From contig CALYLW010000438.1 in the NCBI GenBank assembly GCA_944989445.1, positions 372,001 to 436,000 of the forward strand: DNA of 64,000 bases, written 5' to 3'. Each line of letters starts with the position of its first letter. Within the stretch, counting starts at the first letter, position 1. Below are positions 11,399 through 63,358 of the stretch, piece after piece. The notes beneath the pieces are model-generated. The model made no database searches, was not told where the DNA came from, and was given only the letters and a program-made list of their open reading frames with translations. Origin of the DNA: Ampullaceana balthica (lineage: Eukaryota > Mollusca > Gastropoda > Lymnaeidae). The position numbers and the translations under genes are program-made.

Positions 11399-11560
11399 AT
11401 GACATCAAATTCAAGCCCAATACTAGAAAGAAATGGCCAAAGAAAAACAACAGGATCTTCTTACAGTTCAAATGCCACTTCTCCAATTGTTCTCTCCAAC
11501 AGTAACATGCAAAATGACAATGATGTTGCTTCAAATCTATCACCAAGCTTTCCCTCTGAT
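11399..11560 (+). CDS. SLCO4A1-like: OATP exon 1 (start codon)
   Basis: 54 codons of hydrophilic, Ser/Asn-rich cytoplasmic N-terminus. The first in-frame ATG follows GTGCCAAG. Donor GTAAGT, phase 0. Non-coding exons upstream cannot be excluded. Confidence 0.75.
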
Positions 11561-14500
11561 GTAAGTATCAATAAAAAAAAATTATTGATGTTTTTATTCT
11601 ATTTGAACAAAATTTAACTAGTTAAATTAACTGATCAGTCGAAAAGTATTCTTTATTGAAGTTTCCAATAGTTTCCATCTCGTACCATGATTTGGAAGTA
11701 ACAATGGTGTATGCATACATATTTATAGATTAATATATTGAAAATTACAAGTACAAATTAATTACCGATACAAGTTTCTGTTTTTTTAAAATAAATGTTT
11801 CTTCCTACTTCAGCAAAAGAACAAATCAACTGATATAGATGCAGCATTCAGTGATTGGATGGCTTTGGAGCAGCAATTAGCTTTGAAAGATGGTTTGTAA
11901 AAAATGATTAAAAAGAAACTATCTTGTAATGCAAGAACATAATAATTTGTGTTATCAAAGCTAAATAAATATTATCTACAAAATTGGTACAGATCTGCAT
12001 AAGCATTGTTGCAGTTTTGAAATCCATCATTATAAAATAAGTGTTTTAATTTTTTAAAATGAATAGAAATTACTTCATTACTCAAACCTCTTGTCTCTTT
12101 ATTTATTTATGTATGTATATTTTATACAGTATCTGACAGTACCTTAATCACAGCACATGATATGGGTTTCATTGTGTGGGAATTTATTTATTGGACCAAT
12201 TTGTAGGGTTAATAATTGTATAAAACATCAGAAAAAATGTGTAAATGTACTCTAATTTTGACCTGCATCTGTGAGTTTAAGGTCAAGCATGATAAATGCG
12301 AGACATTAATACTTGACATAAGTCATAAGATATGGCTAATATCCATACAATTTTACAAAAGCTGGACATTAATACTTGATACAAGATATGGCTAATATCC
12401 ATTCAATTTTACAAAACCTTGCATTAAATGCTTGACACAAGATATGGCTACTATCCATACAATTAATATCCATCCAATTTTACAGTGGAATTACAACTTA
12501 TCAGCCTGGTTTCCTAATTGTTTGTAATGTAATATAATTTTGTTGCCATGATGCAAGTTTATGTAAAATACAAATACTCTAAAATTTTAACTGTACAGTT
12601 TTTTAAATGTAAAAAATATAATTCCATGTTTTTAACGTTCCATAAAACATCAAATATATTATTTTTTTAAATAAGGTACTTGTCTTGTTAATAATTTTTA
12701 AAAAGTGGACATATTAAAAAAAATTATAATTTTTTAAAAATATGAAGCCCAGAAGCAAGAATTGGAAGAAAATGAAGGACCAGTGGCTGAGTCAGTGCCT
12801 GAAGAAAACCTAGAGGAAGAATATTTGAACAGATGTGGCTATGGCAGGTGGCGGCCGCAGTTTTTACAATGTTTCAACTCTCCCAACTGTCTGGTGTTTT
12901 TTATGGGACTATATTCTCTTGTGCTAGGTAAATATAGTATTTTGTAACGGAGACTTTTAAGGGGCTCAGTAGTCTTGTGCTATCTCAATATCTTTTTAAC
13001 CTCTACTATAGCTCAAATGTCAACATCTCTTTAACCTCTATTTAAGTTCAAATCTCAAAATCTCTTTGACCCCTACTTAAGTTCAAATCTGTAACATAAT
13101 TAAACTTGGAGATATTTATATTGAATTGTAGCTCCACTTACTTTCTTAAGTTTACACAGTTAATAGTTTTAATTATATTACATACTATTTTAACATGTTA
13201 AATGTTTTGGTGCTAAGAAATATTGTTATGACAGAAGTGATGTATCCTCATACATAGCTATTAAAATGTAGTGCATTCCCAGTTTTCACAGCAATTTGCA
13301 AGCCCTTGAAACTTGAAAACAGAAGTGTAAAATAGAAAGCTTACAATTTTTTTTTCATTTATCACTTTTTATTGAGTTTAGAAGCATAGAAATATATATG
13401 TACATTTGTAAACTTCTTCGAAGTGTAATTTTTTAATGCATTTTTGTAAAACCTTTTTTAAAATAGAAATGTAAACCTTTTCTTTGCCGTAATTGTGACA
13501 TATTGTACTTTATTATCCACATAAAAAATGTACATATTTTATTTCCTCTCTTTACGATTTTGACAGAAGCTGTTGAACTAGTTTATAAAATACAACACAT
13601 TCTGAGTCATTTTGTGTGTGTACTGTCTGAGGTTGAAATAATAAATACAAAAAATACACCACATTCTGACTGAGGAACATATTACATTTTCTGGACCCTG
13701 TCCACTCATCAATTAATATTTCATATTGCATCAACTCTAGCAGCCCCCGCATAATTTGAGTTTGATACACTTTATCCCAAATCAACAATACCAATGAATT
13801 AAGTACATTTGAAATCCAGAAAATATAGTTAACTACGTATAACAAATAGCTAAAATTGATCAATCTTGTTGGCCTCACTAAACTTTCGTTTTTCTTACAG
13901 GTTTCATCGTCAATGGAGTCCACAATGTAAACATTTCCTCAATAGAACGCAGATTTGACTTAGACAGCACCAACCTCGGTTTTGTGTCCAGTGCGTACGA
14001 TGTTTCTGCCGCTCTTCTTGCTGTGGTCATTGGATACATGGGCTCGGGGAAACGGAAACCCAGGCTCCTGGCCATTGCCGTGTTTACATCAGCCGTGGGA
14101 TCCATCACTATGGCGCTGCCTCATTTTTTAGCAGGGCAGTACCAGCTGGGGATGGCCACTGAAAAAATCTGCGTGACGGCGGCCAGTGCTAAGTTAAACT
14201 GCACCGCCGCTCATCATTCCTCCTCCCTCAGTAACTACTTGTACGTGTTTCTTTTCTCTCAACTGCTGCACGGCATCGGGGGCACGACCCTGTTCACCGT
14301 TGGAATCTCTCTTATGGACGACAGTGTCATGCCCAAGAAAACACCACTTTATTTAGGCATAATCTATGGCTGCAATATTGTCGGGTCGGGTTTAGGGTAC
14401 ATCATCGGCGGACAGCTACTGAACATATATGTTGATTTCGACACTGTCGATAACATAAAACTGACTCCCGGTGACACGAGGTGGCTGGGGGCGTGGTGGC

Positions 14501-17500
14501 TTGGCCCGACCTTGGCCTTCTGCCTGCAGCTGGTCGTTTGCGTGCCGATATCCATGTTTGGATCCGAGTTGCCTGGGACCAAAGAAGTCAGGCTGAATCG
14601 GGTCCCAGAGGCGCACGCAGTTGCAATTAGCTCCACCTCCAAGTTTAAGAACAACAGATTCATGACATCAACATTGACTGTCATTAGGAACCCATGTTTT
14701 GTGTTCATCACCCTGGGAATGACAACAGAGGGCATGTTTCTGTCTGGCTCGGCTGCTTTCCTGCCAAAGTTTATAGAGAATGAGTACGGTATACCTGCGT
14801 CTCAAGCAGCTGTTCTATCAGGTGAGTACGGTATACCTGCGTCTCAAGCACCGGTTCTATCAGGTGAGTACGGTATATATGCATCTCTGGCAGCTGCTCT
14901 ATCAGGTGAGTACGGTATTCCTGCGTCTCAGGCAGCTGTTCTATCAGGTGAGGCTAAAATTACAATTTTAAACCTCTAATGGCCTAATTGTGAATGAATC
15001 GACCAGTAAAAATAAAATTTCTCAAAGATCAACTTTATAACCAATACGTGTGGTTTTATATTTTAAACTTGCCTTTTTTATGGGACACTGCAACTGGGAT
15101 TATTACTTCCCTCGTCAGTCTTCTTTACTGGATAGTAAATGGCGGTTATTAAACTTTACCACCCTCTATATGGTTCACTGTTTTCTCTTAATGAAATTAA
15201 CAACTTCCCTTGCCACCCAGCGTAATCATTCTTTACTGGGTAGTAAAAGAAAGATGGCGGGTAAATAAGATAAACATGAGCATAGCCCCTGTGTCGTCAG
15301 TTGATGGCAGCATCCCATATTATTATATTATATTAACACTCTTTGGTAAGGGTTAGGGTGGCCTCTCTTCTTCAAAGGCTCAACTAATAATGCCAAAAAA
15401 TATTTGACATTTGCAAAGTCAATCTTCTTGTCTGACAGTTTTTACCCCTCTGTCACGAGGCCCATAAAGTGTCAATTCTCGACCGTTTGATCACGTGGCC
15501 TAACAAAGGTTTAACATACTTTCAGGACTGGCCGTGGTACCAGCTGCTGTGTGTGGTCTCATCATGGGAGGTTTCATTGCCAAGAGATTTAATTTCACCA
15601 TTCGACAAGCCATCAAGTACCTGATAGCCACCAGCTCAGTCTCAGCACTTGCTTGTGCTGTTGTATGGATACGATGTCAGCCCAGTAGCATATATGGAGT
15701 TAGTAAACCTTACGGGAAAGAGTAAGTTCAAAGATGATCCCAAACATTAGATTTTTTTATTACCTGTATCTCTTCAATTGAATCAAATTCTTGGTATTGG
15801 TAGTCGCCACCTTAGAATAACAAGATATTCTATATGATAGAATAACAAGGCTCTAAGTCGAATTTGTGACAAAAATGAGTTATGGCCACTGGGTTATGGT
15901 CCATATATCAGAAGGGTAGGCAGCTATAACCTAATTGTTTTGTTGTTGTGTACACAGGGTGGTAGGGAACTATAACGTGGTAGGCAACTATAACCTAATT
16001 GTTTTGTTGTTGTGTACACAGGGTGGTAGGCAACTTTAACATGGTAGGCAACTATAACCTAATTGTTTTGTTGTTGTGTACACAGGGTGGTAGGCAACTA
16101 TAACGTTGTAGGAAACTATAACCTAATTGTTTTGTTGTTGTGTACACAGGGTGGTAGGGCAACTATAACGTGGTAGGCAACTATAACCTAATTGTTTTGT
16201 TGTTGTGTACACAGGGTGGTAGGCACTTTACATGGTAGGCAACTATAACCTAATTGTTTTGTTGTTGTGTACACAGGGTGGTAGGCAACTATAACGTGGT
16301 AGGAAACTATAACCTAATTGTTTTGTTGTTGTGTACACAGGGTGGTAGGCAACTATAACGTGGTAGGCAACTATAACCTAATTGTTTTGTTGTTGTGTAC
16401 ACAGGGTGGTAGGCAACTATAACCTAATTGTTTTGTTGTTGTGTACACAGGGTGGTAGGCAACTATAAACTAATTGTTTTGTTGTTGTGTACACAGGGTG
16501 GTAGGCAACTATAACCTAATTGTTTTGTTGTTGTGTACACAGGGTGGTAGGCAACTATAAACTAATTGTTTTGTTGTTGTGTACACAGGGTATTAGGCAA
16601 CTATAACCTAATTGTTTTGTTGTTGTGTACACAGGGTGGTAGGCAACTATAAACTAATTGTTTTGTTGTTGTGTACACAGGGTGGTAGGCAACTATAACC
16701 TAATTGTTTTGTTGTTGTGTACACAGGGTGGTAGGCAACTATAACCTAATTGTTTTGTTGTTGTGTACACAGGGTGGTAGGCAACTATAACATGGTAGGC
16801 AACTATAACCTAATTGTTTTGTTGTTGTGTACACAGGGTGGTAGGCAACTATAACATGGTAGGCAACTATAACCTAATTGTTTTGTTGTTGTGTACACAG
16901 GGTGGTAGGCAACTATCCCATCAAGTTGGATGTGCAGTGCAACAGCCTGTGTAACTGTGACACAGATGCGTTTGAACCGGTGTGTAACAAAGACACAAGT
17001 CTTTATTTCTCACCCTGCTATGCTGGATGTGTCCATCAATCAGGGACTACTGTGAGTTACACTGGAACTTCAGTTTTTTGTGTGGTTTTTTTTATATTTT
17101 GAAACTATTCATTAAAATACACAAAATAAATAAGTTAAAAAATCTTACTTCTTCCTAACAAAAGAACTGATTTTTATCAAAGGGTTTTAATTTTCTTTTT
17201 TCAAAAGTCAGTGCTTACTTAGGCTACTGGATCTAATCTAAAGGATTATTATTGAGACTTGATGCATGTTTGTTTGTTTCAGTTCCACAACTGTACTTGT
17301 GTTATTATTGAGACTTAATGCATGTTTGTTTGTTTCAGTTCCACAACTGTACATGTGTTATTATTGAGACTTGATGCATGTTTGTTTGTTTCAGTTCCAC
17401 TACTTTACGTGTGTTATTATTGAGACTTGATGCATGTTTGTTTGTTTCAGTTCACCAACCGTTCTTGTGTTATTATTGAGACTTGATGCATGTTTGTTTG

Positions 17501-20500
17501 TTTCAGTTCCACAACTGTACTTGTGTTATTATTGAGACTTGATGCATGTTTGTTTGTTTCAGTTCCACAACTGTACTTGTGTTATTATTGAGACTTGATG
17601 CATGTTTGTTTGTTTCAGTTCCACAACTGTACGTGTGTTATTATTGAGACTTGATGCATGTTTGTTTGTATCAGATCCACAATCGTACTTGTGTTATTAT
17701 TGAGACTTGATGCATGTTTGTTTGTTTCAGTTCCACTACTTTATGTGTGTTATTATTGAGACTTGATGCATGTTTGTTTGTTTCAGTTCCACAACTGTAC
17801 ATGTGTTGATGTCCTGAATGAGGTGACCAAACTGGTCACTCCAGTTAGTAGGACACTGAGCACAGAGAACTGCCGTCAGCCTTGCCATCTGCTTTACCTG
17901 TTTGCAGTGCTGCTCTTCATGTCAATGTGTGTTTCCTTCATGCCTATAGCACCAGGAGATTCCATACAACTCAGGTACGGTCATTGGAAGCATTAAGGAT
18001 TATGGAAGGGTCTCATATTTTTTTGCCAACACATGACCGTAAATTAAGTTTAGTATAAAATTTGTTTACTTGATAAAATCTTTGGTATTACAATTGACAG
18101 ATGTGTTCATGAAGACAATAAAGTCTATGCACAGGGAATCAAAACACTAATTGTGCGAATGTTAGGTGAGTAGAATCAAAAACTAATTGTGAGAATGTTA
18201 GGTGAGTAGAATCAAAACACTAATTGTGAGAATGTTAGGTGAGTAGAATCAAAACACTAATTGTGAGAATGTTAGGTGAGTAGAATCAAAACACTAATTG
18301 TGCGAATGTTAGGTGAGTAGAATCAAAACACTAATTGTGAGAATGTTAGGTGAGTAGAATCAAAAACTAATTGTGCGAATGTTAGGTGAGTAGAATCAAA
18401 ACACTAATTGTGCGAATGTTAGGTGAGTAGAATCAAAACACTAATTGTGCGAATGTTAGGTGAGTAGAATCAAAACACTAATTGTGCGAATGTTAGGTGA
18501 GTAGAATCAAAAACTAATTGTGAGAATGTTAGGTGAGTAGAATCAAAACACTAATTGTGCGAATGTTAGGTGAGTAGAATCAAAACACTAATTGTGAGAA
18601 TGTTAGGTGAGTAGAATCAAAACACTAATTGTGCGAATGTTAGGTGAGTAGAATCAAAAACTAATTGTGAGAATGTTAGGTGAGTAGAATCAAAAACTAA
18701 TTGTGCGAATGTTAGGTGAGTAGAATCAAAACACTAATTGTGCGAATGTTAGGTGAGTAGAATCAAAAACTAATTGTGCGAATGTTAGGTGAGTAGAATC
18801 AAAACACTAATTGTGCGAATGTTAGGTGAGTAGAATCAAAAACTAATTGTGAGAATGTTAGGTGAGTAGAATCAAAAACTAATTGTGCGAATGTTAGGTG
18901 AGTAGAATCAAAACACTAATTGTGAGAATGTTAGGTGAGTAGAATCAAAACACTAATTGTGCGAATGTTAGGTGAGTAGAATCAAAACACTAATTGTGCG
19001 AATGTTAGGTGAGTAGAATCAAAAACTAATTGTGCGAATGTTAGGTGAGTAGAATCAAAACACTAATTGTGAGAATGTTAGGTGAGTAGAATCAAAACAC
19101 TAATTGTGCGAATGTTAGGTGAGTAGAATCAAAAACTAATTGTGCGAATGTTAGGTGAGTAGAATCAAAACACTAATTGTGAGAATGTTAGGTGAGTAGA
19201 ATCAAAACACTAATTGTGAGAATGTTAGGTGAGTAGAATCAAAACACTAATTGTGAGAATGTTAGGTGAGTAGAATCAAAACACTAATTGTGCGAATGTT
19301 AGGTGAGTAGAATCAAAACACTAATTGTGAGAATGTTAGGTGAGTAGAATCAAAACACTAATTGTGCGAATGTTAGGTGAGTAGAATCAAAAACTAATTG
19401 TGCGAATGTTAGGTGAGTAGAATCAAAACACTAATTGTGAGAATGTTAGGTGAGTAGAATCAAAACACTAATTGTGCGAATGTTAGGTGAGTAGAATCAA
19501 AAACTAATTGTGCGAATGTTAGGTGAGTAGAATCAAAACACTAATTGTGAGAATGTTAGGTGAGTAGAATCAAAACACTAATTGTGAGAATGTTAGGTGA
19601 GTAGAATCAAAACACTAATTGTGAGAATGTTAGGTGAGTAGAATCAAAACACTAATTGTGAGAATGTTAGGTGAGTAGAATCAAAACACTAATTGTGAGA
19701 ATGTTAGGTGAGTAGAATCAAAACACTAATTGTGAGAATGTTAGGTGAGTAGAATCAAAACACTAATTGTGAGAATGTTAGGTGAGTAGAATCAAAACAC
19801 TAATTGTGAGAATGTTAGGTGAGTAGAATCAAAACACTAATTGTGAGAATGTTAGGTGAGTAGAATCAAAAACTAATTGTGAGAATGTTAGGTGAGTAGA
19901 ATCAAAACACTAATTGTGCGAATGTTAGGTGAGTAGAATCAAAAACTAATTGTGAGAATGTTAGGTGAGTAGAATCAAAACACTAATTGTGAGAATGTTA
20001 GGTGAGTAGAATCAAAAACTAATTGTGAGAATGTTAGGTGAGTAGAATCAAAACACTAATTGTGAGAATGTTAGGTGAGTAGAATCAAAACACTAATTGT
20101 GAGAATGTTAGGTGAGTAGAATCAAAACACTAATTGTGAGAATGAAAGGGGAATAGACAAATAACTATAATTTTGTAAACCACTATCTCAGGAATCAATA
20201 CAATTTTGTTCATAACTGTTTAGGTATCAATAGTTTATATTAATCTATTTTAGGATGGATGATATTTGTAAACAATTGATTTAGGGAAAATTATACTTTA
20301 TAAAAAATGATATAGAAACAATAGTTATTTTTTGGAAAATATTATAGATTGGACAACAGCATTCTTTATTATTATTGGAATGAGAATGCCCTGTTTAAAA
20401 TTGTTTAAGTTTTTTAATTTGATAACCTTAAAAAATAAACTTGATTTTTATGCTCCCATTGATTTCTTCTCCTCTTTGAAAAGGCTCGTTTGTGGGACCC

Positions 20501-23500
20501 ATTTTAATGGGTAAGTTACTGGACATACAATGTGAAACTTGGCGTGAGAAGTGTGGCCAGAGGTTGTCATGCTGGCTGTACAACCACGACAACCTGGTCC
20601 TCAGCATCTACCTGTACGCCGTCGTTCTCAAAGGTCTGTCTGTAGTCTTCAGCTGTCTGGCTTTCAAGTTTTATCGGCCTCCAGTCTGCAACCAGGTTGT
20701 TGTAATTCAGGTAAATAGCAACCAGGTTGTTGTAATTCAGGTAAATAGCAACCATGTTGTTGTAATTCAGGTAAATAGCAACCAGGTTGTTGTAATTCAG
20801 GTAAAAAGCAACCAGGTTGTTGTAATTCAGGTAAATAGGAAACCAGTTTGTTGTAATTCAGGTAAATAGCAACCAGGTTGTTGTAATTCAGGTAAATAGC
20901 AACCAGTTTGTTGTAATTCAGGTAAATAGCAACCAGGTTGTTGTAATTCAGGTAAATAGCAACCATGTTGTTGTAAATCAGGTAAATAGCAACCAGGTTG
21001 TTGTAATTCAGGTAAATAGCAACCAGGTTGTTGTAATTCAGGTAAATAGCAACTACGTTGTTGTAATTCAGGTAAATAGCAACAGGTTGTTGTAATTCAG
21101 GTAAATAGCAACCAGGTTGTTGTAATTCAGGTAAATAGCAACTACGTTGTTGTAATTCAGGTAAATAGCAACCAGTTTGTTGTAATTCAGGTAAATAGCA
21201 ACCACGTTGTTGTAATTCAGGTAACTAGCAACCACGTTGTTGTAATTCAGGTAAATAGCAACCACGTTGTTGTAATTCAGGTAAATAGCAACCAGGTTGT
21301 TGTAATTCAGGTAATTAGCAGATTAATAAAATTACCAGATCAGTGCACTTTACTTTAAGCCACCATTTTTCACAAGAGTTCACAGAAATGTTCTAGACAT
21401 TCTATAAATAACATGGTTAATGGTTACTCTTCGTGCTTGTTGGTTTTTCCTACATCACATCTCAAGTTGTTATCAGGACTATTTTAATGCCAAAATTTAC
21501 AGATTTAAATGTGAATACTATAAAGTTACAAATAAATTATATTTTAAATAAAACTTTTAGCAATGATGGAATACACTTTTTTTTTAAAAGTGCACTATGT
21601 CAAGAAAGACTGGAGAAAATATTTTCAAAATTAATAAAATAAAATCACATGCTAACTCTTGTCATCCTGAAATCTTTTGGTTGCATTTGTGGATTATATT
21701 TCTCCAAGTCTCTCTTTGCATTGTGGATTTTAAGAAATTTTAGATTAATTTTTATTGAATTTTGACCTTTTCCTTATAGCAAGTCTTTTTAAAATGTTAT
21801 TTTATGATGTCTGAGCCCTCTTGAAATCCTTATATCCTGCAGACTACTGATGCACCTCACCATGAAGAGAAAGATGGTAAAGCAGCAGAAGAAACAAACC
21901 ATCCACAGAAAGAAAACTCATTATTTGATGAGGCCAACCAACCAATGGTAAGTGAGTCCAACCAACCAATGGTTAGTGAGTCCAACCAACCAATAGTAAG
22001 TGAGTCCAACCAACCAATAGTAAGTGAGTCCAACCAACCAATGGTAAGGGAGTCCAATCTACCAATGGTTAGTGAGTCCAAGCAGACCTTATTTGCTTTT
22101 GGAACACTAAAAATGGTTTAGTTGTATTTCTTTAATCAGTTCTAAAAAAAACAACTTATAAACTTGATTAAATATTTCTATGATTGAACAGTTTACAACT
22201 TTATCTTATGTAACACTTGAACTGCATCTATACCTTATTGTTTGTTTACTCCCAAGTAGTGATCTCAGTGGTGAGTTCAATTGATAGATGGGGCATGAAA
22301 CGTCCACTCATTTTTCTGATCAATTTATTTATTTTAATGTGTATGATTCAGCCTGAATTGAATATTAAAAAAAAACTACACATTTTGTTTATTAGATGAA
22401 TTATTTTAAAGAATCATTGACACAATATCTATTTCTGGTAATTCAAATTTAAGTTATATTAGATCAGTGGTTCCCAACCTTTTTTGGGTGGCGAGCCCTT
22501 TTTATATAAGACATGTGACCCTCGACCCCAATGAAATTTATATAAGTCATTTTCAATAAAGTTTTTATTAAATTGAGCAAATTTGCATTATAGTGAATAA
22601 TTTTTTAGTCGACAATTGGCGACCCCCAGAAAACCCCTCATGACCCCCTTGGGGTCACGACCCACAGGTTGGGAACCACAGTGTTAGATGCGGGAATAAT
22701 TTTGTGAAAGAGAAAATAAATAAACATAGTATCAATTTTTTATTAGTTAAGTTATTGCTTAAAATTATTTAAAACTAGATACGACCCACGGCGTAGCTTA
22801 CCCCGCAGACTTGCTCTTAGATGGTGCAAAGAAAGGGGGGAAAGAACGGACATAAACTGCAGCACGAAGAAGTCAGAAAAGTCTGAATGATTTAGAACAA
22901 ATGTTGGATTGAAATTCTTCTGCGGAATCCGTTCGTTCATTGGTGTGGGTTTTGAAATGTGGTTGTACATGTTTATCAGGATAGTGGCAAGGTGACGTCA
23001 CATCAGTGTGATCAGATGGCTGTGAAATTTTTGTGGATATACCGACGTTGTCAATACATGGCACCAGAAAGTCATCACGTGTGAGAGGCAATAGAACTTC
23101 ATAATGACCATGATCGAAAGGACTGCTAAAGAGCAGGTATATAGTATAGACAAATGTTGAACGGGATTGTAAACTCGAGGAGAGGTATGAGGACTTTCTC
23201 GGAAGTAAATGAGGATACTGGCTGGAAGTATTTCGGACATCGTGATAATTTCTGCCTCGCCACCAAATACTCCTGAAGTATTCATGTACTGAACATGTTG
23301 AGGAGAGTGTATGACTACTTTTCCGTCACTGAGATCAACGGAGAGCACTTCGCCATAGTTATGCCAATGTTGAGAAACAAAGTTTACAGCCATGTTGCGA
23401 AGCCATTTTCGCAAAAAAATGGGGAAAAGAACAGGCACAAACATACATTTTTAAAAATAAAAAAAATAATGTCTTACCTGGGGCTTGAACCCAGGACTTT

Positions 23501-25148
23501 CCGCGTGTTAGGTGGGTGTAATAACAACTACACTGCGACATGCATGTTATTCTGTAAAGGAGCAACGAAAGTGTACTCAATAAGCATTGTTGGTCTCGAG
23601 GCATGCCCCCCCCCCATCACCTTAGCTTGCCAATCATAACTGTGATTGGTCGACCCCAGCGAGGGTCATTCGTCATGCTAATTTGCACACTACTCGTTCT
23701 TGTTCTGGTGAATTATATATATAGATGTGTAAAAAATACAAATACAATTATTTTAGATTCTGGAATAATTTTGTTAAAGAAAGAGTAAATAAATGCAGAA
23801 TGTACTTTTAAAAAATTGGTAACTATGTTATTGTTAAAAATTATTTTAAATGTATAAAAAATACAAATACAATTAAAACTTTCAACTATTACAAATGATG
23901 ATCTTTTAGTCTATCATTGGTGATTAGTTAGTGAATTTGTTTCATTAAAAGTTACTTTTTTTAATCTTGTAGGTCTTCATGAGGAATTTGAATAATATTT
24001 TTATTGCATGTTTCTGAAAAATATATTTAAAAAAAACAAACAACCTTTGAATGATTGTTGCCTTTTCATTTAGTCAACAACCAGTTCATAAATGTTTCCT
24101 GGGCATATTAATTCAACTATGTCTCTGTACAAGTGTGTTTGATTCTTTACCATGTTCATGTAATGTTAGGGCACATAGATATAATTATAATATTATGATG
24201 CCTGGGCACATTAATATCACGATGCATGGGCACGCACATCAATAAAATGTCTGGACACATTCATTGCATGATGTCTGGTCAAATAAATGTTGTTATGTCT
24301 GTTCACACTAATGTAATATCTGAGCACATTAATGTCATCATGTCTGGGCATGTTAATTTTAATGTTTTATATATAGCTGAACTGCATATTTTCTATAATT
24401 TATTGACTTTAACATTTTTTTACCATGTTTCATAAAAAAGAAAGAAAACAAAAATTGATGAAATTTGGCATTTAAAAAAGTTGATTTTTCTCTCCAAATG
24501 CTTTTAATAAAGACATTTTCACAAGCTCTGCCTGTTTCCCCCCCAAATCTAAATCTTGTACATTCCATGGTCAGATTGAGCTGAAACTTTGCATACATTT
24601 CTGGTGATAAACCGTAAATCAACCATAATCAACTCATAATTGTCGGTTAATTCTGCTATAAATATTTAATTAATTTTTAACTGAGATTGTGTTCATGTAA
24701 AGGGTATTTTGCCTTCTACTGTATGAGAGTTCTGTCCAACTGGTTTAAAATACACTGCTGAATGCTAGCATTCTAGCATAGAGACCAGAGTTCATTTCCT
24801 AGTAGTCAAACATAAGTACAATTTAATGCTTTGTGTTTAAAAAAAATAAAACATAATTTAAGTAAGAAAAAGTAAATGAGTGGAATTTTAAGTTTTTGTC
24901 ATTTTCTTATTACAGTAATTTCTTTCAATAAAACTTTATTATAGTTGAAAATAATATCATTGAAGAAAAATAAAAAATTGTTAATCTCTGTAAAGTTCCT
25001 GCCATACCATTTGTTAGGTGGCAATATGCGCTTGCTTCCTTATATTAAGCCACTAAGCTTCTTAAAGGCTGCCTATCATGGCAATTACTAAGTTTTTCAT
25101 TTTTTATTTTCTAATACTCAGCTTCCAGGAACAGTGCAGAGTTCTTAG
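11399..25148 (+). CDS. SLCO4A1-like: Organic anion transporting polypeptide (SLCO/OATP family), 11 coding exons
   Basis: Twelve-pass plasma-membrane transporter of the SLCO family, which moves amphipathic organic anions such as hormone conjugates, bile-salt-like compounds and xenobiotics. Coding exons: 11399-11560, 11814-11892, 12748-12927, 13901-14821, 15526-15721, 16901-17051, 17787-17974, 18101-18165, 20484-20710, 21843-21947 and 25122-25148. All phases agree, giving 766 residues (relatives run about 650-750). Visible landmarks: RCGYGRWRPQFLQCFNSPNC before TM1; SIERRFDLDSTNLGFVSSAY after TM1; the signature DTRWLGAWWLG near residue 335; ten cysteines in the Kazal-like extracellular loop (residues about 513-590); and RCVHEDNKVYAQGIKTLIVR before TM11. 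The CGxGxxxPxxLQxFN entry resembles SLCO4 members; the subfamily is inference. Six introns start or end in minisatellites whose units copy the splice site. The last exon is the least certain. Confidence 0.9.
11814..11892 (+). CDS. SLCO4A1-like: OATP exon 2
   Basis: Acceptor TTCCTACTTCAG. Encodes the acidic KNKSTDIDAAFSDWMALEQQ segment. The donor GTTTGT is weaker than the consensus; phase 1. Confidence 0.7.
12295..12485. repeat. Degenerate tandem repeat in OATP intron 2 (about 3 units)
   Basis: Roughly 60-bp unit recognised by ATTAATACTTGA, CAAGATATGGCTAATATCCA and CAATTTTACAAAA. It does not touch a splice site. Confidence 0.7.
12748..12927 (+). CDS. SLCO4A1-like: OATP exon 3 (pre-TM1 cysteine motif and TM1)
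   Basis: The acceptor is TATGAAG with a poor pyrimidine tract. Encodes an acidic stretch (VPEENLEEEY), then the RCGYGRWRPQFLQCF motif conserved before TM1, and most of TM1. Donor GTAAAT, phase 1. Confidence 0.85.
12985..13092. repeat. Short degenerate tandem repeat in OATP intron 3
   Basis: About 2.5 units of roughly 42 bp, recognised by ATCTCTTTAACCTCTA and AAGTTCAAATCT. The array starts about 60 bp inside the intron, not at the splice site. Confidence 0.6.
13901..14821 (+). CDS. SLCO4A1-like: OATP exon 4 (TM2-TM6, GAWWLG signature)
   Basis: The largest coding exon (921 nt). Acceptor TTTTTCTTACAG. It encodes the first half of the transporter, including ALPHFLAG, LLHGIGGTTLFTVGISLMDD and the family signature RWLGAWWLGP. 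The exon ends at the first of four tandem GTGAG donors (after 14821, 14863, 14905 and 14947). Each later donor would add 14 in-frame residues. Confidence 0.9.
14781..14953 (+). repeat. 42-bp minisatellite spanning the exon 4 donor site
   Basis: Four units, each covering the last 40 nt of exon 4 (EYGIPASQAAVLSG) plus its GT. The exonic GAGTACGGTATACC and the intronic donor GTGAGTACGG share eight bases, a microhomology that could have seeded the duplication. 42 is divisible by three and all units are open, so any of the four donors keeps the frame. Unit 3 differs most (IYASLAAALSG). Confidence 0.9.
14954..15525. other. Rest of OATP intron 4
   Basis: It includes two similar segments with TTACTGGATAGTAAATGG (15128) and TTACTGGGTAGTAAAAGA (15233), a degenerate duplication of about 100 bp. 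Nothing else is recognised. Confidence 0.55.
15526..15721 (+). CDS. SLCO4A1-like: OATP exon 5 (TM7-TM8 region)
   Basis: Acceptor CATACTTTCAG. Encodes GLAVVPAAVCGLIMGGFIAK and a further membrane segment around TSSVSALACAVVW, ending in KPYGK plus GA. Donor GTAAGT, phase 2. Confidence 0.85.
15914..16916 (+). repeat. 46-bp (and 62-bp) minisatellite spanning the exon 6 acceptor site
   Basis: About 18 units. Each carries a full acceptor (TGTTTTGTTGTTGTGTACAC then AG) followed by the first 16 nt of exon 6 (GGTGGTAGGCAACTAT). Only the last unit runs on into the complete exon. Longer units contain an internal duplication of the GTAGGCAACTATAAC part. Splicing to an earlier copy would read through to a TAA inside the array. 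Confidence 0.9.
16901..17051 (+). CDS. SLCO4A1-like: OATP exon 6 (Kazal-like loop, first part)
   Basis: Encodes the first six cysteines of the large extracellular loop, with spacing QC-NSLC-NC-DTDAFEPVC-(8)-PC-YAGC. The acceptor is the last copy in the preceding minisatellite. Donor GTGAGT, phase 0. Confidence 0.9.
17245..17807 (+). repeat. 56-bp minisatellite spanning the exon 7 acceptor site
   Basis: Ten units, each with a pyrimidine tract and acceptor (GCATGTTTGTTTGTTTCAG) and the first roughly 21 nt of exon 7 (TTCCACAACTGTACTTGTGT), then TATTATTGAGACTTGA. Only the last copy continues into the complete exon. An upstream acceptor would encode FHNCTCVIIET followed by TGA. Confidence 0.9.
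17787..17974 (+). CDS. SLCO4A1-like: OATP exon 7 (rest of Kazal-like loop, next TM)
   Basis: Encodes FHNCTCVDVLNEV, the closing cysteines NCRQPC, and a membrane segment (HLLYLFAVLLFMSMCVSFMP). Donor GTACGG, phase 2. Together with exon 6 it gives the ten loop cysteines typical of OATPs. Confidence 0.9.
18101..18165 (+). CDS. SLCO4A1-like: OATP exon 8 (65 nt)
   Basis: A short exon encoding RCVHEDNKVYAQGIKTLIVR and ML, the conserved stretch leading into TM11. Acceptor ACAATTGACAG. The donor GTGAGTAG is the first of about 55 copies in the following array. Phase 1. Confidence 0.88.
18137..20156 (+). repeat. 37/35-bp minisatellite spanning the exon 8 donor site (about 55 units)
   Basis: Each unit is the last 29 nt of exon 8 (AATCAAAACACTAATTGTG, CGAATGTTAG) plus the first 8 nt of the intron (GTGAGTAG). 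Two polymorphisms run along the array: GCGAATG versus GAGAATG, and AAAACACTAA versus AAAAACTAA (37 versus 35 bp). The last unit is decayed (AATGAAAGGGGAATAG). Reading into the second unit meets TAG at once, so only the first donor gives a long protein. Confidence 0.93.
20157..20483. other. End of OATP intron 8
   Basis: AT-rich with no feature beyond the exon 9 acceptor (CCTCTTTGAAAAG). Confidence 0.6.
20484..20710 (+). CDS. SLCO4A1-like: OATP exon 9 (TM11-TM12)
   Basis: Encodes SFVGPILMGKLLDIQCETW, CGQRLSCWLYNHDNL and the last membrane segment (IYLYAVVLKGLSVVFSCLAF), then KFYRPPVCNQVVVIQ. The donor GTAAATAG is the first copy in the next array. Phase 0. Confidence 0.88.
20690..21318 (+). repeat. 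30-bp minisatellite spanning the exon 9 donor site (21 units)
   Basis: The unit is the last 21 nt of exon 9 (AACCAGGTTGTTGTAATTCA plus G) and the first 9 nt of the intron (GTAAATAGC). In the exon frame each unit encodes VNSNQVVVIQ without stops. The frame stays open for the first units until a 31-bp unit near 20831-20861 shifts it. Several downstream donors would therefore lengthen the cytoplasmic tail by multiples of ten residues. Confidence 0.92.
21319..21842. other. Rest of OATP intron 9
   Basis: AT-rich with no recognised element. Ends with the acceptor TATATCCTGCAG. Confidence 0.6.
21843..21947 (+). CDS. SLCO4A1-like: OATP exon 10 (cytoplasmic tail)
   Basis: 35 codons of charged C-terminal tail (APHHEEKDGKAAEETNHPQK, then NSLFDEANQPM). 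The donor GTAAGTGA is the first copy of the next short array. Phase 0. Confidence 0.8.
21934..22081 (+). repeat. 24-bp minisatellite spanning the exon 10 donor site (6 units)
   Basis: The unit is the last 14 nt of exon 10 (CCAACCAACCAATG) plus 10 nt of intron (GTAAGTGAGT). In frame it encodes VSESNQPM with no stop. Some units have the GT changed or weakened (ATAGTAAG, TGGTTAGT), so not all copied donors look usable. Confidence 0.88.
22082..22464. other. OATP intron 10, first plain stretch
   Basis: AT-rich with no feature. Confidence 0.5.
22465..22681. mobile_element. hAT-type MITE in OATP intron 10
   Basis: The inverted ends are CAGTGGTTCCCAACC and GGTTGGGAACCACAG. The 8-bp duplication has one mismatch (TATTAGAT at 22457-22464, TGTTAGAT at 22682-22689). 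Same family as the element at 31189-31389: both carry GGGGTCGCGACC-like and GCGACCCC-like subterminal blocks and an AAAACTTTATT/AATAAAGTTTTT core. Confidence 0.85.
22775..23725 (-). mobile_element. Non-autonomous Helitron-like element (951 bp) in OATP intron 10
   Basis: On the minus strand it starts A|TCTATATATATAATTC and ends CTAG|T, with a hairpin (GGGGTA-AGC-TACGCC, one mismatch) 11 nt before the CTAG. The 3' part and the GTTGGTCTCGAG block are shared with the 242-bp copy at 5129-5370. The interior carries a tRNA-like piece (23475-23541). No Rep or helicase ORF is present. Confidence 0.75.
23475..23541 (-). other. tRNA-like sequence inside the Helitron
   Basis: On the minus strand there is GTCGCAGTGTAGTTGTTATT, then CACGCGGAAAGTCCTGGGTT and CAAGCCCCAGG. 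The GGTTCAAGCC B box and the preceding arm resemble the tRNA head common in SINEs. The acceptor stem does not close, so it is not called a tRNA gene. Confidence 0.45.
24178..24362. repeat. Degenerate roughly 28-bp tandem repeat in OATP intron 10
   Basis: About six diverged units built on ATGTCTGGGCACATTAATGT. Confidence 0.65.
24470..24690. repeat. Dispersed repeat fragment
   Basis: It contains TTGAGCTGAAACTTTGCATA, which resembles ATCGAGCTGAAATTTTGCAG at 49107. It is probably part of a decayed interspersed family with members near 49020-49400 and 56750-57010. Confidence 0.4.
25122..25148 (+). CDS. SLCO4A1-like: OATP exon 11 (stop codon)
   Basis: The acceptor TTCTAATACTCAG is followed by eight codons (LPGTVQSS) and TAG. 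This is the first good acceptor with a short in-frame ending after exon 10. A different last exon is possible. Confidence 0.5.
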   Translation, partial: LPGTVQSS

Positions 25149-29694: not shown

Positions 29695-30654
29695 TTTCAT
29701 GGATGCTTTGAAGTGTTCATGGATACATCCAAGTGTTCATGGATACATTGAAGTGTTCATGGATACACTGAAGTGTTCATGGATACACTGATGTGTTCAT
29801 GGATACACTGAAGTGTTCATGGATACACTGATGTGTTCACGGATACACTGAAGTGTTCATGTATACACTGAAGTGTTCATGTATACACTGAAGTGTTCAT
29901 GGATACACTGAAGTGTTCATGGATACACTGAAGTGTTCATGGATACACTGATGTGTTCATGGATACACTGAAGTGTTCATGTATACACTGAAGTGTTCAT
30001 GGATACACTGAAGTGTTCATGGATACACTGAAGTGTTCATGGATACACTGAAGTGTTCATGGATACACTGATGTGTTCATGGATACACTGAAGTGTTCAT
30101 GGATACACTGATATGTTCATGGATACACTGATGTGTTCATGGATACACTGATGTGTTCATGGATACACTGATGTGTTCATGGATACACTGATATGTTCAT
30201 GGATACACTGATGTGTTCATGGATACACTGAAGTGTTCATGGATGCACTGATGTGTTCATGGATACACTGATGTGTTCATGGATACACTGATGTGTTCAT
30301 GGATACACTGAAGTGTTCATGGATACACTGATGTGTTCATGGATACACTGAAGTGTTCATGGATACACTGAAGTGTTCATGGATTCACTGATGTGTTCAT
30401 GGATACACTGATGTGTTCATGGATACACTGAAGTGTTCATGGATACACTGAAGTGTTCATGGATACACTGAAGTGTTCATGGATACACTGATGTGTTCAT
30501 GGATACACTGATGTGTTCATGGATACACTGAAGTGTTCATGGATACACTGATGTGTTCATGGATACACTGAAGTGTTCATGGATACACTGATGTGTTCAT
30601 GGATACACTGAAGTGTTCATGGATACACTGAAGTGTTCATGGATACACTGAAGT
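29695..30654. repeat. 20-bp minisatellite, about 48 units, two main variants
   Basis: Unit TTCATGGATACACTGAAGTG with a frequent ATGTG variant at the end. The period stays at exactly 20 bp across the array, so variation is by substitution only. Confidence 0.95.
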
Positions 30655-34469: not shown

Positions 34470-35292
34470 GTACTTGAATCTGACCTTAGCCACAAATACT
34501 TAGATGACCAGTACTTGACCTTAGCCAGAGAAACGTAGATGACCAATACCTGACCTTGGCCACAAAGACTTAGATGACCAGTACCTGACCTTTGCCACAG
34601 AAACTTAGATGACCAATACCTGACCTTGGCCACAAAGACTTAGATGACCAGTACCTGACCTTTGCCACAGAAACTTAGATGACCAATACCTGACCTTGGC
34701 CACAAAGACTTAGATGACCAGTACCTGACCTTTGCCACAGAAACTTAGATGACCAATACCTGACCTTGGCCACAAAGACTTAGATGAATAGTACCTGACC
34801 TTTGCCACTGAAACTTAGATGACCAGTACCTGACCTTGGCCACAGAAACTTAGATGACCAATACCTGACCTTTGCCACAGAAACTTAGATGACCAATACC
34901 TGACCTTGGCCACAAAGACTTAGATGACCAGTACCTGACCTTAGCCAGAGAAACGTAGATGACCAATACCTGACATTGGCCACAAAGACTTAGATGACCA
35001 GTACCTGACCTTTGCCACAGAAACTTAGATGACCAATACCTGACCTTGGCCACAAAGACTTAGATGAATAGTACCTGACCTTTGCCACTGAAACTTAGAT
35101 GACCAGTACCTGACCTTGGCCACAGAAACTTAGATGACCAATACCTGACCTTTGCCATAGAAACGTAGATGACCAATACCTGACTTTGGCCACAGAAACG
35201 TAGATGACCAATACCTAACTTTGGCCACAGAAGCTTAGATGACCAATACCTGACCTTGGCCACAGAAACGCAGATGACCAATACCTGACCTT
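34470..35292. repeat. 35-bp minisatellite with 70-bp dimer structure (about 23 units)
   Basis: Units of the type TGACCTTGGCCACAAAGACT then TAGATGACCAGTACC alternate with TGACCTTTGCCACAGAAACT then TAGATGACCAATACC. This gives a 70-bp higher-order period over much of the array. Confidence 0.92.
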
Positions 35293-35399
35293 CAAATTGA
35301 TGTTGCTCCTGTTCCCCACTCAAATATTATTACTATTACTATTGTAAACATGGAACCTCCGGTGGTATATCTTTTTTTTCACTCTCAGCCGCTCCCTAA

Positions 35400-35648
35400 C
35401 AATATCTACATATCTCCTCCTACATCCACATCTCCCCTCCCACATCCACATCTCCCCTCCCACACCCACATCTCCCCCTCCACATCCACATCTCCCCTCA
35501 CACACCCACATCTCCCCCTCACACACCCACATCTCCCACATCCACACCTCCAACATTCACATCTTCATATTCACATCTTCACTACAACATCCACATATCC
35601 CTTCCAACATCCACATCTCCATTTCATCATCCACATCCCACCTCCCAA
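35400..35648. repeat. Irregular C-rich short repeat
   Basis: CACATCTCCCCTCC-type words of 14-17 bp in loose tandem. It appears to be the diverged edge of the following 20-bp array (shared ACATCTCC). Confidence 0.8.
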
Positions 35649-36618
35649 ATCGACATCTCCCTACAAACATCAACATCTCCCTACAAACATCAACATCTCC
35701 CTACAAACATCAACATCTCCCTACAAACATCAACATCTCCCTACAAACATCAACATCTCCCTACAAACATCAACATCTCCCTACAAACATCAACATCTCC
35801 ATACAAACATCAACATCTCCCTACAAACATCAACATCTCCCTACAAACATCAACATCTTCCTACAAACATCAACATCTCCCTACAAACATCAACATCTCC
35901 CTACAAACATCAACATCTCCCTACAAACATCAACATCTTCCTACAAACATCAACATCTCCCTACAAACATCAACATCTCCCTACAAACATCAACATCTCC
36001 CTACAAACATCAACATCTCCCTACAAACATCTACATCTCCCTACAAACATCAACATCTCCCTACAAACATCAACATCTTCCTACAAACATCAACATCTCC
36101 CTACAAACATCGACATCTCCCTACAAACATCGACATCTCCCTACAAACATCAACATCTCCCTACAAACATCAACATCTCCCTGCAAACATCAACATCTTC
36201 CTACAAACATCAACATCTCCCTACAAACATCGACATCTCCCTACAAACATCGACATCTCCCTACAAACATCTACATCTCCCTACAAACATCAACATCTCC
36301 CTACAAACATCGACATCTCCCTACAAACATCAACATCTCCCTACAAACATCAACATCTTCCTACAAACATCAACATCTCCCTACAAACATCAACATCTCC
36401 CTACAAACATCAACATCTCCCTACAAACATCTACATCTCCCTACAAACATCTACATCTCCCTACAAACATCAACATCTTCCTACAAACATCAACATCTCC
36501 CTACAAACATCAACATCTCCCTACAAACATCGACATCTCCCTACAAACATCAACATCTCCCTACAAACATCGACATCTCCCTACAAACATCGACATCTCC
36601 CTACAAACATCTACATTT
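35649..36618. repeat. 20-bp minisatellite (about 48 units)
   Basis: Unit CTACAAACATCAACATCTCC with substitution variants (CGACATC, CTACATC, TCTTCC) and no change in period. Because 3 x 20 bp lacks stops on the + strand, it creates a 431-codon open frame that I do not regard as a gene. Confidence 0.95.
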
Positions 36619-37479
36619 CCCCTCTTTCAAAACCAAAGAAAATAAAAACTCAAACGTTTTAATTGTGGGAATATTGCATGCTAAGGAATTGACATTGTAT
36701 GAAAAATCAAAGTTGTTTATGTATTTGTCTATTCATAATATTTATAACAATAGTGATTCTTTTAATTAGTTTCATTTAACAAATTATTGAGGTTGTTAAC
36801 TTTTAAAAGAAAGTAAAATTTAACATACATGAGTTCATCCATCATCACTGCTTTAATTCAATTTGATGCATTTCTTGGGTAGGGGGGATGGTGGGCTAGA
36901 TTCTTTTTTGCCCCCCTCCACGAAATAAAAAAACACAACAAAATTAGTTAATTACACAAAAGTATACATTTGGCATTATATTTTGATGAAAATATCTACA
37001 AAATATGGAATATTTTAAAATTATTTAAATGTTTTTCATGAAAATTTATAGTAACCAATTCAGATTTTTTTTGGAGAATAGTTAAGATGGATTCTAATCA
37101 GATGTATCCTTTTTTAAAATCTTGCTAATGGAGCTTTTAATTATGTTATTTATTATATCTATACATTTTTAAATAAATCAATGTGGAAAGTCTATGTATT
37201 GCCATTAACACTAGAAATAAAGACTATATCCTTATATCTATGTAACTTGTAATCTCACTTGTACTTAAATATACACATAGATACATTTCTGTTTGTACTT
37301 CAATATCCTCGTACATGTAGATGATATACACTTTGTATTTCCATACCCTTATCCATGTAGAAGATACTGTAGCATGTGCCGCACATTACATTGATATAGA
37401 TTGTGTACTGTACATGTACCGCACATTACATTGACATAGATTGTGTACTGTACATGGTGTGCAACCTTTGTTTGTCACA
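36619..37479. other. Intergenic stretch without a gene
   Basis: AT-rich. A roughly 53-bp imperfect duplication with TGTACATGTACCGCACATTA lies at 37375-37460. Confidence 0.5.
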
Positions 37480-48400: not shown

Positions 48401-51400
48401 GTAGGAATATGAGTTAAGTGAGGGGCTAAAACGTGTTGTGGAGAGAATATCAGTGGTCAAATAGTATCGTAACATTAGTTCTTAATATCAGTGGTCCAAT
48501 GGTATCGTAACATTAGTTCTTAATATCAGTGGTCCAATGGTATCGTAACATTAGCACTCAATGTGAGGGGTCAAATGGTATCGTATGAATAGAAATTAAT
48601 TTGATGCTACCCGTGGTTTCGAAGAGTGCGTACCTTCTGTGAGTGGTCCTAACGTGTATTGAGTACTTAATGTGATTGGTCCTAAGGTATCGAATAGTGA
48701 GAAATTCATTATTGTGCTCCAATGGTATCAAAGATTAGAACTTGATGTGAGATGCCCCTCAGTTTAACATTAACATCGTCACACACAACTCGCCCGTCCA
48801 CAGGAGACAACTGCATCTGTCGTGAAGGCGTGTCAGCGTGTAGCAAGGAGTGGGACGAGAGCCTGGGAGAGAGCAGTTTGACATGGCAACATTACGAACG
48901 AGGTGAGTTACAGTGGTGAGTAGTGGGACTGCTAAGTACAGGGGCAGAGAAGGGAATTAAAAATTTCCCACTTTATCCACGCCCTTGAACTGTGGATTAA
49001 AAACAATCTTGAGTTTTTAAAATCCTTTATATTAACTGGAATCGTCTGCTTGTCTGTCTGTCGCAAAAAACTTTGTATCGATTTTAACCCACTTCCCGGT
49101 ATCCTATCGAGCTGAAATTTTGCAGGCAGACTCGTGGCGACGATAAAAATAATCTGTCAAAATTTCCCATCGATCGAATGTGCTGTAATTAAATTAATGA
49201 ATTTTTATATCATCTCTTTGTATCTCTATGTAGCATGTAAATGTTAATGCTATTCTGTCGTATTATATTGAATATACTTTTATATATTTTCCTGATCTGT
49301 CAATGTTTATGCTAGTCTGTCGCACGGCGCGTACTATATTGAACATACTTTTAGTTATGAATCATTTATAACGGATTTATAGTCAAAAACTTTGTTTTTT
49401 TTTGTTTTTTAAAATTCTTTTTAAAATAATGATTGCAAAATCTGATTTAACTTTTTTAACATTACATAATTTGATTTTGAGAAATGTTGATGTCCTATAT
49501 ACTTAATTAAGAAAAGTATTAAGTTGCACATAAACAAAAGTCTGTCAGTGATGGTAAGACAAACTTTGCAGTTTTAACAAAACTATTCCCCCTCCCCCTA
49601 GCCAGATGTTCACGCCATCATCGCAATAATATCAAGCATGTGTATATCTTCTTATATAAATGCGCCCCAAACATCCCCATCATTGAATTGTTTGAAAATG
49701 TTTACCTACCAACGTTTTGTCACAATAAGAAATGTTTACCTTCCAACGTTTTGTCACAATAAGAAATGTTTACCTACCAACGTTTTGTCACAATAAGAAA
49801 TGTTTACCTTTCAACGTTTTGTCACTGTAAGAAATGTTTACCTTCCAACGTTTTGTCACTGTAAGAAATGTTTACCTACCAACGTTTTGTCCCAATAAGA
49901 AATGTTTACCTACCAACGTTTTGTCACTGTAAGAAATGTTTACCTACCAACGTTTTGTCACAATAAGAAATGTTTACCTTCCAACGTTTTGTCACTGTAA
50001 GAAATGTTTACCTACCAACGTTTTGTCACTGTAAGAAATGTTTACCTACCAATGTTTTGTCACAATAAGAAATGTTTACCTACCAACGTTTTGTCACTGT
50101 AAGAAATGTTTACCTACCAACGTTTTGTCACAATAAGAAATGTTTACCTTCCAACGTTTTGTCACTGTAAGAAATGTTTACCTACCAACGTTTTGTCACT
50201 GTAAGAAATGCTTACCTACCAATGTTTTGTCACAATAAGAAATGTTTACCTACCAACGTTTTGTCACTGTAAGAAATGTTTACCTACCAACGTTTTGTCA
50301 CAATAAGAAATGTTTACCTACCAACGTTTATTCACAATAAGAAATGTTTACATAACAACGTTTTGTCACAATAAGAAATGTTTACCTAACAACGTTTTGT
50401 CACAATAAGAAATGTTTACCTGCCAACGTTTTGTCACTTTAAGAAATGTTTACCTACCAATGTTTTGTCACAATAAGAAATGTTTACCTAACAACGTTTT
50501 GTCACTGTAAGAAATGTTTACCTTCCGTTTTGTCACTGTAAGAAATGTTTACCTTCCGTTTTGTCACTGTAAGAAATGTTTACCTTCCAACGTGTTGTCA
50601 CTGTAAGAAATGTTTACCTTCCGTTTTGTCACTGTAAGAAATGTTTACCTTCCGTTTTGTCACTGTAAGAAATGTTTACCTTCCAACGTTTTGTCACAAT
50701 AAGAAATGTTTACCTTCCGTTTTGTCACTGTAAGAAATGTTTACCTTTCGTTTTGTCACTGAAAGAAATGTTTACTTACCAACGTTTTGTCACTGTAAGA
50801 AATGTTTACCTTCCGTTTTGTCACTGTAAGAAATGTTTACCTTCCAACGTTTTGTCACTGTAAGAAAGGTTTACCCACAATTGGCTTCACCATTTAGATC
50901 AATATTCGGAGCATTGAAATTTTTAAAAAAATGTGCTCCTAGTTTTAAATGTAAACATAAACCACCTTTAACCATTTTCACGCATCAATGGAATTAAAGG
51001 TAAACATATGCCAGCTAACGTGTTTGTCCTTGAACCGTGTTTCCCCGAAGCTGGTAGAAGCTGCCAAAATCATATTTGGTGTACTATAAAAAGAAAGATC
51101 AGTATTCACATCATGCAGGGATTTCTGTTAAAATAGAGATTTTTTGGGGTCTTATTTTTACTTAATAGGTTTAATGGTAATTTTAAAATAGAGAACGTTT
51201 TTGTCTTATTTTTACCTTAAAGGTAATAAATTATTTAGCCACTTTTCTATTTGTATATATAAATGATATCATAATAAGATAATGTGTATTTTATGCAGTA
51301 CTGCGTAATAAAAAAATAAGACTCAGCTTCATAGAAATCAAAACATGTATTATAGAACAATATTAAAACATTTTCGTCTTGAACATCTCTATAGCGACCT

Positions 51401-62671: not shown

Positions 62672-63358
62672 ACTGAACTGAACTATCCCTTAACCCGTTG
62701 TTGGGTCGTTGGGGCACCATCGTGAACTGCTCACTAACACACGCTATTTGTCACGTTCCTGTGCTGCCCTTTGAGAGTCGCTGAATGACAGGCCGGTCCA
62801 CTCTTTGATATCGTCCTCTTCTTTTGTCTGCCTCTTTTCCTTCCTCCCTGGACTGTGCCTTGTAATATGGTTTTTGCGAGACCTCCAGTTCTTGTCACGT
62901 GTCCGTACCATCGTAAATTCCTTTTCTAAATTGATGTGAGTAGGTCCTCGTAGGGGCCAATGACAGTACTTATTGTTTTGCGGACCGCTTCGTTTGTGAT
63001 GTGCGCTGTGTAGGAGATATTCAATATCTTTCTGAAACATCTCATCTCTAGCGCACTGATTCTTCTTTGGAGGTCTGCGGTGAGCGTCCAAGCCTCGCAA
63101 CCATACAAAAAGACCGACATCGCCAGAGAGCGCATTAGTCGGATCTTTGATCTCAGGGAGAGCTTTTTACTTTGCCAGATGTGCTTTAATTTGCTCCATG
63201 CTGCCATTGTTTGGGCTACTTTGGCAAGAATTTCTGGCTTTGAGCCTTCGTCGGATATTATGGCCCCTAGATACTTGAAGGTGGAGACTTCTTCGAGTTT
63301 TTGCCCGTTTATCCGAATCTCGCTTGTGATTTTTGATATATTGATTTTTCAATAACAT
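62672..63358 (-). pseudogene. LINE 3' relic (minus strand)
   Basis: The minus strand encodes reverse-transcriptase C-terminal blocks: near 63280 a VSTFKYLGAIISDEGSKPE-type stretch, then KLKHIWQSKKLSLRSKIRLM, FLYGCEAWTLTADLQRRIS, LEMRCFRKILNISYTAHITN and, in a shifted frame, NKYCHWPLRGPTHINLEKEF. The 3' end has a short (GTTCA)n tail at 62672-62688. It is 5'-truncated just after the palm and frameshifted near 62930. Confidence 0.85.

Follow-up and report, generated by a model that had tools for sequence, protein, structure and literature searches.

Tandem repeats that run over exon-intron boundaries were named mirages in amphioxus, where they were described in the Adh3 and globin genes (PMC3087553), with further cases in the troponin C and PGBD5 genes (PMC3902484). 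According to the accessible parts of these accounts, mirages have 10- to 160-bp units, occur at both boundaries, and carry AG or GT in many of their repeats. Regular splicing is kept, array length is unstable, a genic copy lies beside the repeats, and the mechanism that generates them is called unclear (PMC3087553). We analyzed comparable arrays in the snail Ampullaceana balthica, in a 64,000-nt stretch of its genome (C438:372001-436000; here called the window) that carries a gene for an SLCO4C1-like transporter of the OATP family. At six of the ten introns of this gene lies a minisatellite whose unit joins an exon edge to the adjoining splice site. An earlier note on this DNA had found no described mechanism that would target six junctions of one gene; the published mirages have the same structure. 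We consider that the snail arrays are probably junction minisatellites of the mirage type, duplicated across the junctions, expanded, and tolerated by way of an intact outermost copy.

Tandem Repeats Finder (TRF) recovered six arrays over six different exon-intron junctions, four at donors and two at acceptors, in agreement with the earlier note on their number, their sides, and the makeup of their units (Table 1). Arrays A1, A4, A5, and A6 run from exon through donor into intron, and A2 and A3 run from intron through acceptor into exon. The exon-derived part of the unit, previously put at 14 to 40 nt, comes to about 16 to 41 nt from the coordinates, and the previous estimate of about 100 copied splice signals compares well with the 113 that we counted by anchor word, or 107 without the six outermost. 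The units of A2 are a mixture of a 46-bp form and a 64-bp form carrying an extra 18 nt, while A4 takes up ~1979 nt of intron 8, which is 2318 nt long, and its copies are of four types in irregular order. Nested rows aside, the remaining TRF rows in the gene are in intron 2 (12327-12464), intron 3 (12982-13090), and intron 10 (24188-24233), and none of these reaches a splice site, just as had been claimed. Within the two acceptor arrays, variable columns are concentrated in the exon-derived part of the unit, with 9/16 there versus 1/30 elsewhere in A2 (15928-16916) and 10/19 versus 2/37 in A3 (17246-17807; Fisher P of ~1e-4 for each); this pattern was not found in the four donor arrays.

The predicted product of the gene is a lymnaeid-snail SLCO4C1-like OATP. 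The spliced translation has 766 aa without an internal stop, every intron is GT-AG, and the top match among 68 is protein P0001 of Lymnaea stagnalis, itself a predicted protein, with 94% identity over 88% of the query; the next-best homologues are from Bulinus, Biomphalaria, and Physella. Exons 1 and 2, and thus introns 1 and 2, were placed solely by open frame and splice consensus, and P0001 begins within exon 3. At its other end, P0001 terminates in ...DEANQPMLPGSVHSS, and its LPGSVHSS matches the C-terminal LPGTVQSS encoded after the 3174-nt intron 10. Given this match beyond the intron, array A6 would begin at a true donor. We aligned seven gastropod proteins, including P0001, over the junctions. 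P0001 crosses all six without repeat peptides, reading KEVVGNYP at A2, GSTFHNCTCV at A3, NQVIVIQTPDV at A5, and ANQPM/LPGSVHSS at A6 (the slash marks the junction), and LGSF(V/M/T)G spans the A4 junction in 7/7 proteins. The other six are repeat-free across A1, A3, and A4, as are five of the six across A2, where P0006 is gapped and lacks the stretch in question; at A5 and A6 these six diverge and are uninformative. Because the Lymnaea ortholog runs straight over all six junctions, splicing probably uses the outermost copy, such that the first donor or last acceptor would be the site yielding the conserved protein. The alignment also bears on the age of the arrays. At A1, Lymnaea, Bulinus, and Biomphalaria have K where the window gene has Q, with C at the first codon position in 4/4 copies, and at A5 Lymnaea has I where the window gene has V, with GTT in the array copies. 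The differences at these two sites suggest that the arrays arose, or were homogenized, after the split from L. stagnalis.

Table 1. The SLCO4C1-like gene, its coding exons, and the six junction arrays (positions within the window)
Feature	Positions	Strand	Details
SLCO4C1-like OATP gene	11399-25148	+	11 coding exons, 10 GT-AG introns
Array A1	14781-14952	+	4 copies of the intron 4 donor (exon end 14821); 42-bp unit
Array A2	about 15914-16916	+	18 copies of the intron 5 acceptor (exon start 16901); 46-bp unit
Array A3	17246-17807	+	10 copies of the intron 6 acceptor (exon start 17787); 56-bp unit
Array A4	18136-20144	+	54 copies of the intron 8 donor (exon end 18165); 36/37-bp unit
Array A5	20688-21320	+	21 copies of the intron 9 donor (exon end 20710); 30-bp unit
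Array A6	21929-22081	+	6 copies of the intron 10 donor (exon end 21947); 24-bp unit
Coding exon 1	11399-11560	+	Frame and splice consensus
Coding exon 2	11814-11892	+	Frame and splice consensus
Coding exon 3	12748-12927	+	P0001 starts inside this exon
Coding exon 4	13901-14821	+	PF03137, E 3.8e-86
Coding exon 5	15526-15721	+	
Coding exon 6	16901-17051	+	
Coding exon 7	17787-17974	+	
Coding exon 8	18101-18165	+	
Coding exon 9	20484-20710	+	
Coding exon 10	21843-21947	+	
Coding exon 11	25122-25148	+	Encodes LPGTVQSS and the stop; backed by P0001 C terminus

We considered that the donor arrays could instead be used, with inner copies serving as alternative donors or with the array read as coding repeats, giving protein variants. 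There is a precedent in the minisatellite of human IFI6 (6-16), for which the accessible part of the report gives two downstream repeat units as used donors, resulting in three mRNAs (PMC4526556). The units of 42, 30, and 24 nt are multiples of three and are partly or wholly open in frame, which speaks against purely passive tolerance: A1 is open through 4/4 copies, A5 through about five, and A6 through six copies to a stop, which would yield an alternative C terminus. However, the A1 repeats would insert where a conserved transporter segment ends, the 36- to 37-nt units of A4 carry an in-frame TAG directly after the donor, and the frame of A5 is lost via 31- and 29-nt units. Such repeats occur in 0/7 aligned gastropod proteins, though six of them say nothing on A5 and A6. 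Across 20 junction arrays, the unit length is a multiple of three in 8 (P = 0.64), and frame selection on the units was rejected on this count; the absence of a frame bias fits DNA that becomes part of an intron. We saw no sign of function in the arrays, from which we infer its absence, and we regard their use as quite improbable. In the A6 region (21843-22121), retention of intron 10 would give a C terminus of repeated SESNQPMV.

Random placement of the gene's nine arrays on its collapsed sequence gave an expectation of 0.74 junction arrays under uniform and 0.81 under GC-weighted placement, and at least six were obtained in ~5e-5 of 20000 uniform trials and in 0/20000 GC-weighted trials, values that apply to a gene chosen for looking odd. 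Given that choice, we sampled other genes of the same genome (1.097 Gb in 3363 contigs), using exons matched by the OATP (PF03137) and SLC6 (SNF, PF00209) profiles, for a total of 110 exons and 220 edges. The first set comprised 70 exons with longer flanks (207 kb of merged sequence, with the window-gene locus excluded from the counts), and the second comprised 40 exons with 110-nt flanks, judged by eye from TRF rows. We used 49 of the 55 OATP matches (two were from the window gene, one was a repeated exon, two were unfetched, and one was outside the available sequence) and 61 of the 93 SLC6 matches. Exon edges were taken from hidden Markov model matches and a simple splice score, not from RNA. 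Some exons are split over more than one match, some of the edges do not correspond to true junctions, and the sample holds near-identical locus copies on C820 and C2407.

In this sample, 12/110 donor edges and 2/110 acceptor edges lie inside an array, with unit lengths of 18 to 87 bp compared to 24 to 64 bp in the window. The idea that six junctions of this one gene had been targeted is therefore not upheld. At the sample rate of 14/220, the probability that one gene has at least six arrays at 20 junctions is 0.0012, so the window gene sits in the tail of a broader pattern and is not specially targeted. Within that pattern, donor junctions appear to be enriched ~2.5- to 4-fold and acceptors do not. 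The collapsed DNA of the first set (164 kb) carries 108 arrays, arrays cover ~21% of gene flanks, and random placement would hit ~2.4 to 2.7% of junctions. In simulations of the first 70 exons, 7 donors were observed versus 1.7 to 1.9 expected (P = 0.002 with uniform and 0.0025 with GC-weighted placement); for acceptors, the expectation was the same and 1 was observed. Scaled to 110 exons, the 12 donors compare with 2.95 expected (P = 6.1e-5), and a more generous expectation of 3.17 gives P values of 1.2e-4 for donors and 0.82 for acceptors, whose count of 2 is at or under expectation. Arrays are denser at 40 to 60% GC, and GC content was rejected as the whole cause of the donor excess given that GC-weighted placement expects 1.88 donors versus the 7 observed.

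Several features of the sample weaken the donor excess. A single SLC6 junction, hit in different paralogs by arrays with units of 25, 41, 22, and 31 bp, supplies four of the 12 donor cases, and at C111:294432, which is still among the 12, the likely true donor lies ~14 nt before the TRF array call. Merging the four paralog cases leaves 9 donors (P = 0.0034), and also dropping C111:294432 leaves 8 versus ~3 (P = 0.011 to 0.016). Left uncounted were an array at L075 ending just before a likely acceptor that had no score and arrays that merely approach a splice site to within ~10 nt on the intron side, such as those at C318:248144, C63:458288, C342:470922, and C820:701102. Pure chance, whereby a minisatellite-rich genome gives some genes many junction arrays with no preference for junctions or donors, would account for the acceptor count at the observed array cover, and the per-gene probability of 0.0012 would predict a couple of dozen such genes if there are 20,000 genes with 20 junctions each, which are assumed numbers. 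It also draws on the strictest donor count above and on the pooled test of both sides, in which the 8 junction arrays of the first 70 exons have P values of 0.0185 (uniform) and 0.04 (GC-weighted). What speaks against it is the full donor count, 12 with ~3 expected, together with the strand asymmetry of a donor motif described below, both of which come from two gene families, and we find chance as the sole explanation unlikely. The earlier expectation that arrays overlap splice sites more often than chance allows therefore stands for donors and falls for acceptors in this two-family sample.

The strand asymmetry was assessed by locating donor motifs in array units oriented by the gene of the nearest listed exon, with exon edges unused. 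Among the 108 arrays, GGTRAG was found in gene sense in 13 and in antisense in 1, and the sense-to-antisense ratio in single-copy DNA from these stretches is 68 to 36, giving a P value of 0.022 for 13/14. Some of the 13 sense arrays adjoin unlisted exons, as judged by eye from a preceding OATP- or SLC6-like frame (C544, C2407, and C63). Seven motifs and one loose motif were tried, and the other forms of the donor motif detract from the result: compared with 68:36, the P values are 0.06 for GGTRAGT (10:1), 0.06 for AGGTRAG (10:1), 0.18 for GTRAGT (12:3), and 0.68 for [AC]AGGTR (12:7), leaving GGTRAG as the only form below 0.05, and its ratio becomes 12:1 (P = 0.03) once C820 and C2407 are counted as one. 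The loose motif gave 24 sense and 10 antisense among 100 distal arrays, and acceptor-like motifs in array units had no strand bias (1:0 and 1:2). We take the strand test as supporting, not decisive. In genome-wide pair counts, one donor word outnumbered its mirror word (13139 versus 8304), and two others fell below theirs (1541 versus 1882 and 238 versus 885), the latter being at odds with a donor preference. Giant arrays dominate these counts, so we drew no inference from them; at C1:2877353-2891903, for instance, pattern matches recur at 27-bp spacing over ~14.5 kb. By eye, the first 3.5 Mb of C1 contains 9 distinct sites with listed pairs of AGGTGAGT, and the 14.3 Mb of C1 and C2 contains 15 with pairs of its mirror word, figures that do not account for single-copy word frequencies.

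We propose that an array would start with a short tandem duplication (unit of ~18 to 90 bp) across an exon-intron junction, through slippage or microhomology-mediated repair, sometimes where exon bases match splice-site bases (TGAG and GTGAG). Later growth would occur by slippage or unequal exchange, as in other minisatellites of this snail genome. Selection would purge arrays that break an exon and tolerate those at junctions, since the first donor or last acceptor, as the outermost copy, retains the whole exon and a working site; every other copy would become intron, which would be lengthened in the process. The central proposal of the earlier note, repeated duplication across junctions with the outermost copy preserving exon and site and the inner copies lengthening the intron, finds support here.

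The clearest traces of the starting step are in A1, whose unit begins with the exonic TGAG and which ends with the TGAG of GTGAG (an overlap of 4 nt), and in A6, where the overlap is TGAG-CCAA with one mismatch. A paralog on C2407 carries a 42-bp array at the junction homologous to that of A1, which starts at shared Asn-Glu codons and ends with TGAGTT. The C2407 exon aligns with window exon 4 to and beyond the shared Asn-Glu pair, and the unit sequence of its array differs from that of A1. The simplest reading would be two independent events in which the TGAG of the exon paired with that of the donor through microhomology; a single array inherited from the ancestor of such distant paralogs is less likely. 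Exon 4 ends near profile position 334, and given that the same junction bounds the exon in the C2407 paralog and that several paralog matches begin at positions 331 to 335, intron 4 predates array A1. The microhomology is clear only in A1, A6, and C2407, with 2 to 3 nt or no judgeable match in the others, which counts against a general role, and we treat this step as a lead and not a rule.

Array growth can also be viewed at the C820 and C2407 loci (L033 and L036), which are 98.7% identical over 2074 nt and differ in one intronic, non-junction 38-bp array with 19.3 versus 2.2 copies. They are probably two haplotypes of a hypervariable locus. Window exon 4 has one match in the assembly, leaving a single haplotype for comparison of array lengths. 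Assembled array lengths are often wrong, and the window arrays might in principle be an artefact of tandem repeats collapsed or inflated during assembly. However, the array copies carry mixed, nonperiodic variants, as in A4, the unit sequence and junction position would outlast errors in length, and junction arrays recur in other genes, which makes an artefact extremely improbable.

One reading of the donor bias is tolerance combined with some extra origin at donors. Donor arrays are commoner than acceptor arrays, plausibly because the intact first donor is transcribed ahead of its copies, whereas decoy acceptors precede the true one. Neutral tolerance alone cannot raise donors above background, and to this extent the account that we favor is incomplete. 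A more far-reaching possibility is that minisatellites in this snail lineage arise preferentially at splice donors, with a genome-wide process having put ~1 donor in 10 into a self-growing array, lengthening introns and adding thousands of decoys. Together with its suggested driver, either short matches between donor and exon or a tie to transcription, we hold this possibility to be doubtful though worth entertaining. If it were true, decoy sites could become alternative exons or new introns. Hairpin-forming units were tried as a cause and rejected, given that 37 window arrays had a mean z of -0.18 versus shuffles, with no signal.

Elsewhere in the window, the region outside the gene (27054-62428) contains many long minisatellites, such as those at 29696-30654, 34480-36622, 49696-50875, and 59070-60289. 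In intron 10 lies a pair of 14-bp inverted repeat arms (22467-22679), which match perfectly, are separated by 185 nt, and resemble a miniature inverted-repeat transposable element. Two possible retroelement fragments gave weak matches below the Pfam cutoff, to RVT_1 at 1232-1729 (+; E 1.2e-4) and to DUF6451 at 62929-63348 (-; E 2.4e-5).

If the donor excess holds genome-wide, the snail arrays would offer natural experiments on how the spliceosome chooses among tens of identical sites, as well as insight into intron growth and into junction duplication as a feeder of intron gain. Recurrent arrays at homologous junctions of paralogs would, in addition, provide a direct handle on the starting step. 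Among the titles and abstract openings of part of the open-licence literature, no such arrays were reported for a mollusc, and the snail arrays are notable for their phylum, density, and donor bias.

In the accessible parts of the reports, three other systems share features with the snail arrays. As in human IFI6, tandem units supply repeated splice donors; two downstream units of IFI6 are reported as used (PMC4526556), whereas the inner copies of the snail arrays are potential donors. In potato RdRp, an intron was gained by duplication across a boundary (PMC4974935). The snail arrays likewise involve tandem duplication crossing an intron-exon boundary; the new potato intron is inside the duplication, whereas the snail arrays lie in introns, of which at least intron 4 is shared with paralogs, and no new intron was seen. 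In human duplicated genes, the variable internal tandem repeats located at exon-intron boundaries are also minisatellites, with ~30-bp units, that alter intron structure (PMC2812944). Unlike the snail arrays, they are found in primate segmental duplications, about half are coding, and they are associated with putative new introns. The closest likeness is to the amphioxus mirages, whose structural features the snail arrays have: the unit spans the exon-intron boundary (6/6 window arrays and 14/220 sample edges), both donors and acceptors are hit (4 and 2 in the window, 12 and 2 in the sample), and the units fall within 10 to 160 bp. Given its presence in a second phylum, the mirage structure is not confined to lancelets. 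Compared with the amphioxus mirages as described in the accessible parts of those accounts, the snail arrays differ in their gastropod host, in hitting six junctions of one gene, in reaching up to 54 copies, and in their excess at donors in the sample.

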